Below, piece by piece: positions 29,797 through 31,356 of a DNA stretch of 64,000 bases. The notes under the pieces were generated by a model. That model searched no databases. It was not told where the DNA came from and worked only from the letters and a program-made list of their open reading frames with translations. This DNA is from Bradyrhizobium jicamae (lineage in GTDB: Bacteria; Pseudomonadota; Alphaproteobacteria; Rhizobiales; Xanthobacteraceae), in assembly GCF_018130215.1 (NCBI RefSeq), contig NZ_JAFCKQ010000001.1:496001-560000 (forward strand), read 5' to 3'. A program made the translations under genes and the position numbers. Numbering within the stretch: position 1 is the first letter of the stretch; each line of letters begins with the position of its first letter.

Positions 29797-31356
29797 ATGC
29801 GAATCCTTAGAATCATGTGCTGGGTATGCGCCTTCCTTGGATGGCTGAACGTCAGTTCGCCCTTGCAAGCCCAGACAACCGATCAGCCAGTTCAAACACC
29901 CAGCACCGCTCCCTCGCCTGTTCCCGAGCCACCGGCGCTCAAGCCCGCCGAACTCGATGCGCTGGTCGCGCCGGTTGCGTTGTATCCCGACACGCTGTTG
30001 TCGAACGTGCTCATGGCATCGACCTATCCGCTCGAAGTGGTGCGCGCGGAACGCTGGATGAATCAGAACAAGGGTCTGAAGGGAGACGCCCTAAAGACGG
30101 CTGCGGAGAAGCAGGGCTGGGACGCAAGCGTCAAGGCGTTGGTCGCGACGCCGTCGGTTCTCCAGATGATGAACGAGCATCTCGACTGGACCCAGAAGCT
30201 GGGCGAAGCATTTCTGGCTCAGCAGCAGGACGTGATGGATGCTGTGCAGCGGCTCCGCTCGAAAGCCTATGACAGGAAGAAGCTGGTCACCACGAAAGAG
30301 CAGAAGGTGACGACAAAGTCGGAGCAGAACCGGCAAGTCATCTACATTGAACCTGCCTCGGAAGACAGCATCTACGTTCCGTATTACGAGCCGAACGTGG
30401 TTTATGGCGATTGGCCCTACTCGGACTATCCTGCCTATCCCTACGACTGGGGCTATCCCAGCTACATCGGAGCCGGCGTTATCGCGGCCGGCGTGGCATT
30501 CGGCACGGCCTATGCACTGGGGCGATGGGCCACCGGCGGCTACTGGGGTGGCGGCGGTTGGTGGGGCGGCAGTCGGGTCAACTGGGGCGGTGGAGCTATC
30601 GACGTCAATCGCGGTGCTCGCGTCGAGCATTGGCAACATGATGCAAGCCATCGACAGGGGGCGCGTTATAACAACGCGAACCTGCAACAGAAGTTTGGCA
30701 ACGCCAATCGACGGCCAGCTGGAGACCGGCAAGGATTAGGAACCGGCAACAATCGTCCGAACGCGGGCGACCGAGGCCGAGCGACAAACAGGCAGGCCGG
30801 TGCTGGCAGAACGGCCGGCAATCGCCAAGCGGGTAACCGCTCGACGGCGGCAAGGAACGCAAGGTCTGGTGGTCGCGCGGCGCACCGTGGAGCGTCCAGA
30901 ACCGGACATTTCAGGCCATCGGCGGGCCGTGGCGGCGGCGGGGCGCGGTTTGCTGGCGGCGGACATCGGGCTGCGGCGTTCCGTGGCGGCGGCGGCGGCT
31001 TCCGTGGCGGCGGTGGCGGTTTCCGCGGCGGCGGTGGCGGTTTCCGTGGTGGTGGTGGTGGTGGTCGTGGCGGTGGTGGACGCCGATCCGACATCCAGCT
31101 CAAACACGACGTGGTGTTCCTTGGACGACTCGACAACGGCCTCGGTTACTATCGCTTCTCATACAACGGCAGCGACAAGACTTATGTTGGCGTAATAGCG
31201 CAGGAAGTGCAGGCGGTGAGACCCGACGCCGTCACTCGTGCCAGCGACGGTTACCTCCGCGTCTATTACGAGCGGCTCGGCCTGAAGTTCCGCTCGTATG
31301 ACGATTGGGCCGCTTCGGGAGGTCAGTTGCCGAAGACAATAGGGGCGACGCGCTGA
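29797..31356 (+). CDS. Secreted DUF3300 protein with C-terminal S74 intramolecular-chaperone domain
   Basis: A 519-residue envelope protein. Residues 1-26 are a signal peptide. Residues about 45-245 match DUF3300, with LDALVAPVALYPDTLLSNVLMAS, QKLGEAFLAQQQDVMDAVQRLR and YEPNVVYGDWPY (parts shown). A Gly/Asn/Arg-rich region (250-428) follows, including 7-residue FRGGGGG repeats. Residues 431-519 resemble the peptidase S74 chaperone of phage tail spikes: SDIQLKHDVVFLG, then YVGVIAQEVQAVRPDAV. Ser431 and Lys436 have the five-residue spacing of the S74 self-cleaving dyad. The ATG was preferred over an in-frame GTG five codons upstream because GGTGGAG precedes it. Function is unknown. Confidence 0.85.
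   Translation: MRILRIMCWVCAFLGWLNVSSPLQAQTTDQPVQTPSTAPSPVPEPPALKPAELDALVAPVALYPDTLLSNVLMASTYPLEVVRAERWMNQNKGLKGDALKTAAEKQGWDASVKALVATPSVLQMMNEHLDWTQKLGEAFLAQQQDVMDAVQRLRSKAYDRKKLVTTKEQKVTTKSEQNRQVIYIEPASEDSIYVPYYEPNVVYGDWPYSDYPAYPYDWGYPSYIGAGVIAAGVAFGTAYALGRWATGGYWGGGGWWGGSRVNWGGGAIDVNRGARVEHWQHDASHRQGARYNNANLQQKFGNANRRPAGDRQGLGTGNNRPNAGDRGRATNRQAGAGRTAGNRQAGNRSTAARNARSGGRAAHRGASRTGHFRPSAGRGGGGARFAGGGHRAAAFRGGGGGFRGGGGGFRGGGGGFRGGGGGGRGGGGRRSDIQLKHDVVFLGRLDNGLGYYRFSYNGSDKTYVGVIAQEVQAVRPDAVTRASDGYLRVYYERLGLKFRSYDDWAASGGQLPKTIGATR
30979..31062 (+). repeat. 21-bp in-frame tandem repeat encoding FRGGGGG
   Basis: Four successive 21-base units begin with TTCCG at 30979, 31000, 31021 and 31042, each coding Phe-Arg followed by five Gly. 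Their near identity at the DNA level makes this an in-frame length-variation site within the DUF3300-S74 gene. Confidence 0.85.

Follow-up and report, generated by a model that had tools for sequence, protein, structure and literature searches.

A DUF3300 protein of Bradyrhizobium jicamae ends in what appears to be a minimal variant of the Peptidase S74 domain, and the reading that we favour, which we think has an even chance of being right, is that this domain is a portable, self-releasing tail, joined to a probably exported DUF3300 protein at its old C-terminus. Cleavage before Ser431 is predicted from the protein sequence; self-cutting is possible and likely enough to be worth testing, and a classical fibre is unlikely. 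The S74 domains of MyRF, T5 and K1F are reported to cut as trimers held by coiled coils (PMC8326128; PMC3742443; PMC4690869), but many S74 domains, from phages as well as from bacterial proteins that are probably exported, keep an SDxxxK motif and show no coiled coil. As a small case, the short tail on DUF3300 lets one ask if S74 chemistry truly needs trimerisation, and the fusion also offers a handle on the DUF3300/DUF2950 pair, which is reported to be induced in two symbiosis transcriptomes (PMC4653623). Searches of open PubMed Central returned three papers that mention DUF3300, no paper linking Bradyrhizobium with 'peptidase S74', no paper on 'tail fiber domain-containing protein' with Alphaproteobacteria and, among the papers listed and judged from titles and the beginnings of abstracts, no report of an S74 domain without a coiled coil.

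Domain layout and genomic setting

The gene lies in a 64-kb window (the whole stretch of DNA analysed here) and has the following features:

29797..31356, + strand: DUF3300-S74 fusion gene, 519 aa (ORF translation; Pfam)
29797..29871, + strand: probable signal peptide, residues 1-25, MRILRIMCWVCAFLGWLNVSSPLQA (translation judged by eye)
29944..30657, + strand: DUF3300 domain, residues 50-287 (PF11737, 277.2 bits, cut-off 25, E 1.2e-82)
30658..31086, + strand: basic Gly/Arg/Ala-rich linker, residues 288-430 (translation; composition and net charge +25 taken from LYPD+215 to Ser)
30969..31079, + strand: 21-base tandem repeats, four to five units, encoding FRGGGGG-like units (Tandem Repeats Finder)
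31081..31089, + strand: Arg429-Arg430/Ser431, candidate self-cleavage junction (Arg-Arg before Ser in 45/45 proteins; cleavage putative)
31087..31353, + strand: minimal S74 domain without coiled coil, residues 431-519 (PF13884 at 431-480; AF2; MyRF ICA match)
31102..31104, + strand: Lys436, second member of the Ser-Lys dyad (translation)
31237..31353, + strand: C-terminal tail, residues 481-519, covering the place of the classical S74 trimerising coiled coil (AF2, structure comparison, heptad score)

The fusion and the Gly-rich segment between its domains, both named in the original prediction, are borne out, as PF11737 and Peptidase_S74 (PF13884; residues 431-480, matching the full 58-position profile with 30.9 bits where 22 is required, E 3.5e-07) each exceed their Pfam cut-offs within one 519-aa ORF and residues 288-430 are rich in Gly, Arg and Ala. 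A search of the 519-aa protein against NCBIfam gave no match. Ser431, Asp432 and Lys436 open the S74 domain with SDxxLK spacing, Ser and Lys being its positions 1 and 6, so the five-residue spacing of a Ser-Lys dyad that had been claimed for this protein is indeed present. The DUF3300 part, modelled by AF2 from six sequences, reached a pLDDT of only 37.7, and we claim no fold for it. Seven relatives of the window protein found by name are all from Bradyrhizobium.

The gene has an MmgE/PrpD gene upstream and a gene for a beta-lactamase-family protein downstream on the opposite strand, with an AraC-type regulator and an acetyltransferase as further neighbours. A promoter scan found none, a single terminator-like site was detected, on the opposite strand, against 1.5 expected, and the 64-kb window holds no tRNA genes. 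An origin of the locus as a prophage or phage fragment was considered and rejected because of these neighbours, the lack of tRNA genes and the linkage of S74 to DUF2950 that is kept across the genus sample.

The fusion recurs across Bradyrhizobium, usually next to DUF2950

The source genome (8,547,214 bases) has two DUF3300 genes, and both continue in frame into a terminal S74 domain. DUF2950 is present directly downstream of the paralogue on contig C13 and absent directly downstream of the window gene. The third S74 domain of this genome belongs to a caspase-like protein whose repeat segment is rich in Ala.

DUF3300 was found in 42 of 60 congeneric genomes, at 48 places, and at 39 of these an S74 stretch follows on the same strand within 2.6 kb downstream; the next feature after S74 is DUF2950 in 36 of the 39, the window gene being among the three without it. 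Among the nine remaining places, two (L035, L036) are S74-less and end in GGGRRR, in four (genomes G297, G319, G337 and G344) the contig stops within the DUF3300 frame while the genome has S74 with DUF2950 on a different contig, and three (G310, G323:C162, G335:C85) are contig edges or fragments. Looked at from DUF2950, an S74 match lies 90-120 bases upstream in 40 of 41 places, the exception being a partial match in G310. A survey of such fusions had been proposed along with the original prediction, and it shows them to be recurrent (39/48 places), with 45 distinct in-frame proteins, that of the window included.

Outside the genus the fusion is rare. In an order-wide draw DUF3300 occurs in 38 of 297 genomes, at 42 places, 40 of which were read; S74 is present on nine (eight Bradyrhizobium and one, L028, from another family) and absent from 31 (one of them Bradyrhizobium, L013), where genes without the S74 pattern were classed by their last 12 residues, or about 100 for most of L006-L062. 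S74 was thus found on 1 of the 31 places read outside Bradyrhizobium. DUF2950 is in the flank of 28 of the 30 S74-less DUF3300 places outside the genus (L009 and L023 lack it), which indicates that DUF3300 and DUF2950 pair independently of S74. The published account of rhizobial DUF3300-DUF2950 pairs describes them as co-localised, with signal peptides, and as induced in two RNA-seq studies (symbiosis transcriptomes); S74 goes unmentioned in the main text of that paper (PMC4653623). The window copy shares the DUF3300 domain with these pairs and with E. coli YacH, and the C13 paralogue also shares the DUF2950 neighbour, but the window copy differs in having no adjoining DUF2950 and an added S74 domain. 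E. coli yacH is reported to be CpxR-regulated, and its deletion strain outlived the wild type under protamine (PMC9600279).

We also considered that the fusion might be a short-lived read-through product or an assembly error without function. The two parts are in different frames at three congeneric loci, and the Gly-codon repeats could favour slippage, but this explanation is very improbable in view of the 45 distinct in-frame proteins, the median dN/dS of 0.152 of the S74 tail (see below), the order S74 then DUF2950 in 36 of 48 places and the two in-frame copies in the source genome.

The frame-shifted loci are L039, L049 (=L118) and L106 (3/39), where a shift lies between DUF3300 and S74; of the three genomes concerned, G322 is assembled into one contig. 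A stop codon interrupts L095, and L096 contains unread bases. Slippage, pseudogenes or assembly errors may account for these five loci.

The S74 domain is joined where S74-less orthologues end

In all 45 in-frame fusion proteins the Ser is preceded by Arg-Arg, and this in turn by Gly-Gly (45/45). The linker is otherwise variable in sequence, and its length, taken from a fixed DUF3300 point (LYPD+215) to the Ser, ranges from 142 to 226 residues. The bond between Arg430 and Ser431 had been proposed as the scissile one, and with Arg-Arg followed by Ser in 45 of 45 fusion proteins it stands as the candidate.

A similar sequence is found where DUF3300 proteins have no S74 domain: judged by eye, 27 of 30 S74-less proteins outside the genus have a Gly-rich end with at least two Arg at or next to the terminus (L007, L016 and L023 are the exceptions). 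Aligned with these GGGRRR ends, the RR/S junction shows that the S74 domain begins just where the S74-less orthologues stop. A cut before Ser431 (..GGGGRR) would therefore nearly recreate the S74-less end (..GGGRRR). A point against this reading is that the Arg-Arg before Ser may simply have been inherited from the old end.

The Gly-rich end with terminal RRR of S74-less DUF3300 proteins such as L006, L010 and L026 resembles a C-terminal motif in its own right. We also examined whether a short S74 (here at most 97 aa) generally goes with a Gly-rich linker. Over the 40 residues that precede S74, Gly makes up 30% or more in all 50 DUF3300 rows and in 12 of 32 short rows from other bacterial proteins, among them L099, a DUF3300-type tail truncated at a contig end; among viral short rows the figure is 1/65 and among long rows 0/31, and a general link was rejected.

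The Ser-Lys dyad is retained and the tail is under purifying selection

Query A2 begins only behind SDxxLK, so that the motif was not used as bait. In a class-wide search it found matches in 20 of 385 genomes, and SDxxxK lies upstream in 29 of 29 of them (four from Bradyrhizobium, the window gene included). The same holds for 80 of 80 among the best 80 of at least 267 viral relatives (at least 600 stretches), 78 by script and two, which have longer inserts, on reading; these 80 include near copies (e.g. L194-L196), and both A2 sets mix short and long S74. The distance from Ser to stop is at most 82 residues in 58 of the best 80 of at least 267 viral relatives (one of which ends at a contig end), and short viral S74 domains are only 35-49% identical to that of the window protein. 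Alignments A1 and A3 and the order-wide, junction, heptad, Gly-linker, S74-tree and dN/dS sets were picked with the SDxxxK pattern, and the dyad is present in them by construction; only the two A2 sets escape this bias.

Pairwise dN/dS (Nei-Gojobori, dS 0.1-1.5) has a median of 0.152 for S74 (906 pairs) and of 0.145 for DUF3300 (957 pairs). The S74 tail is under purifying selection and is constrained about as strongly as the DUF3300 domain.

The classical coiled coil and beta-helix are missing

In MyRF the S74 (ICA) domain forms trimers by means of a triple coiled coil at its C-terminus, cleavage requires the zipper residues L685, L692, I696 and L699, and single changes such as L692A or R695A abolish it (PMC8326128); in the zipper mutant L683A homo-oligomers still form and processing is defective (PMC3742443), and the two reports concur on the zipper requirement. 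A C-terminal coiled coil of this kind, sought with a crude heptad score of our own, was found in none of 51 DUF3300-S74 tails. Where other S74 stretches exceed 90 aa, 36 of 42 passed the score (viral 18/20, other bacterial 18/22), and among shorter S74 so did 2 of 51 viral and 2 of 35 other bacterial ones.

An AF2 single-chain model of residues 425-519 (62 sequences; pLDDT 84.3, pTM 0.73) has end helices of only 4 and 6 residues. Foldseek alone gave no match to this model at E 0.001 or better. A second look with VIA-align ranked the MyRF ICA (7dc3) top among 201 aligned chains (58 residues superposed at 2.6 A with 28% identity, Z 3.6), with model positions 20-95 spanning MyRF 605-682; the Z-score is weak, but it still counts, since an S74 structure ranked first of 201 chains. 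In a sequence-profile search of the PDB MyRF was likewise first (E 0.016), followed by the long tail fibre 6f45 (0.093). The MyRF alignment stops at 682, and the zipper positions 685-699 thus have no counterpart in the window protein. In sum, the likeness to the MyRF ICA consists of the Ser-Lys dyad five residues apart and the GVIAQEV core, while the triple C-terminal coiled coil and the beta-helical stalk of MyRF (PMC8326128, PMC3742443) were not found here.

In classical S74 domains activation is ascribed to a neighbouring-chain Arg at position -14 (K1F, T5) or to a Lys atop the last helix (MyRF). T5 pb1 is built like MyRF and is proposed to need the neighbour-chain Arg1250, 14 residues before Ser1264 (PMC4690869). 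The K1F endosialidase and T5 pb1 chaperones share with the window protein the Ser-Lys spacing and a PF13884 match above cut-off, but the T5 chaperone is 133 residues long and bears a coiled coil besides its long beta-hairpin tentacles (PMC4690869), whereas the window S74 has 89 residues and neither a coiled coil nor a conserved -14 Arg. Position -14 is Arg in 2 of 45 fusion proteins, the window protein being one of the two, and an activation argument from this residue was dropped because of that count.

Composition ahead of the domain also gave no indication of a triple beta-helix, the last 40 residues before S74 having a median of 62% Gly (50 DUF3300-S74 rows). The segment proves to be low-complexity Gly/Arg sequence of variable length. 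The original prediction had envisaged a trimeric fibre, at the surface or in the periplasm, that would mature by autoproteolysis in the way of classical S74 proteins, in which the domain trimerises a beta-helix before it cuts itself off. The S74 domain and its dyad are present, and there is a bacterial precedent in the MAT fibres of Bdellovibrio, which are likewise non-phage and S74-terminated and whose cleavage depends on S782 (PMC10769870). These MATs, however, are typically trimeric beta-helical fibres of ~1,000 aa (PMC10769870), whereas the window protein has a Gly/Arg linker and a minimal S74. With heptads in 0 of 51 tails, a model that ends in short helices, a MyRF match that stops before the zipper and low-complexity Gly/Arg sequence ahead of the Ser, we do not favour such a fibre and consider it improbable.

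A model for a self-releasing tail, and its main rival

In the model that we favour, S74 would be a portable C-terminal cassette of the kind carried by phage virion and ejection proteins and by small bacterial proteins whose N-termini are signal-like. Once folded it would cut before Ser431, freeing an 89-aa fragment and leaving a DUF3300 protein that ends in GGGGRR, close to the natural S74-less end; as long as it is uncut, it would serve as a folding check or a cap for the Gly/Arg tail. Lacking both a coiled coil and a beta-helix, the domain would have to be activated otherwise than in tail spikes and MyRF, and this may take place within one chain or via a different oligomer. The analogy with MyRF also counts against this model, because the zipper that MyRF is reported to require for cleavage (PMC8326128, PMC3742443) is absent here. 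So do the rarity of Arg at -14, the weak Z-score of the MyRF match, the lack of a Foldseek match, the preponderance of tail families among the matched PHROGs, the three loci with S74 in another frame and the non-terminal S74 match in phage MW202675. A more far-reaching version, which we put forward only tentatively, is that a coiled-coil-free, self-cleaving S74 cassette occurs both in ejection proteins of phages and in exported proteins of bacteria and fires in cis or via another oligomer (e.g. three Gly-rich strands forming a polyglycine-type stalk), with the invariant Arg-Arg replacing the activating Arg and the cut restoring the ancestral Gly-Arg end of DUF3300.

Alternatively, the S74 domain may no longer be a protease at all, and would then be a stable, attached C-terminal cap or small oligomerisation domain in which Ser, Asp and Lys hold the N-terminal edge of the fold. 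The coiled coil and upstream beta-helix that go with cleavage in characterised cases are both absent, the -14 Arg is not conserved, and purifying selection extends over the whole tail rather than the dyad alone, all of which would fit such a cap. Nevertheless, SDxxxK is present in 109 of 109 motif-free finds (29 class-wide and the best 80 of at least 267 viral) despite the 35-49% identity of the short viral S74 domains, and a Ser that opens the domain exactly at the junction is hard to ascribe to folding alone. We therefore regard loss of protease activity as possible but doubtful.

Phage relatives and other carriers of the domain

Among phage families the S74 domain matches best a virion structural protein, phrog_6121 (E 7.1e-17), and next a DNA ejection protein, phrog_4287 (1.4e-10). 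The best tail family follows behind these at 2.5e-08, yet 15 of the 18 matched PHROGs are tail families. The fibre that we consider improbable draws some support from this preponderance and is at odds with the two top families being virion and ejection proteins. Of the original match to phage tail spikes, the S74 assignment holds, but the closest families are virion and DNA-ejection proteins and the tail families match more weakly. Among the annotations of the 24 phage records matched are an ejection protein, an internal virion protein D and a number of structural or hypothetical products, as well as a tail spike/chaperone and two long tail fibre/tail fibre proteins. In Pseudoalteromonas phage H6/1 the ejection protein gp17 has its S74 at the C-terminus and is encoded in an operon with head-completion genes; the S74 match of phage MW202675 is internal to a much longer CDS and not terminal. 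Two S74 proteins are also named in a table of a podovirus paper (PMC9144972). The virion and ejection proteins (phrog_6121, phrog_4287; H6/1 gp17) thus resemble the window protein in their short terminal S74 (H6/1 gp17) and provide the top profiles, but they have other N-terminal parts and are virion components, whereas the window protein is probably an exported cell protein.

Trees of the two domains differ in where they place L028. When 84 DUF3300 domains are placed on a tree, the S74-bearing proteins of Bradyrhizobium group with four that are cut by contig ends (91/87, an unstarred branch), and L028, on a long branch, falls among S74-less proteins of another family (100/96). A single clade of the 16 S74-bearing rows was rejected (lnL 60.4 lower, p-AU 2e-107) in a 39-row test whose group was picked after seeing the tree and in which L028 is a long branch. 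In a tree of 32 S74 domains, a single clade (100/98) unites L028 with the other DUF3300-borne ones. It also takes in L273, a DUF3300-type tail at the end of a contig, and L121, which comes from a small DUF3300-less protein of Bradyrhizobium and is the partner of L028 (100/97). This grouping suggests that the S74 part moved between host proteins, for which the evidence is moderate only, as the S74 tree rests on few columns (75).

Several other proteins with a short S74 were noted on reading. Small proteins from the same order (L121, L122, L124, L127, L131, L132, L135, L140, L145) consist, by eye, of hardly more than a short S74 behind a segment rich in Gly or Arg and an N-terminus that looks like a signal peptide or that of a lipoprotein. 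L123 and L149 have a Gly/Asp-rich linker and then a short terminal S74, behind a middle part that we take to be FecR-like from its look. Three caspase-like Bradyrhizobium proteins (L004, L274, L276; Peptidase_C14 in L004) have long AASN/AASR repeats and a short terminal S74 (PSDxRLK), and are another use of the S74 cassette. Finally, many phage-type proteins with a short S74 (part of L193-L272; L080, L082, L089, L177) have a hydrophobic stretch of small residues, e.g. GLLGLGSSAIMA, directly before SDxxxK. If cut at this motif, such proteins would free a membrane-active end, which would fit an ejection protein.
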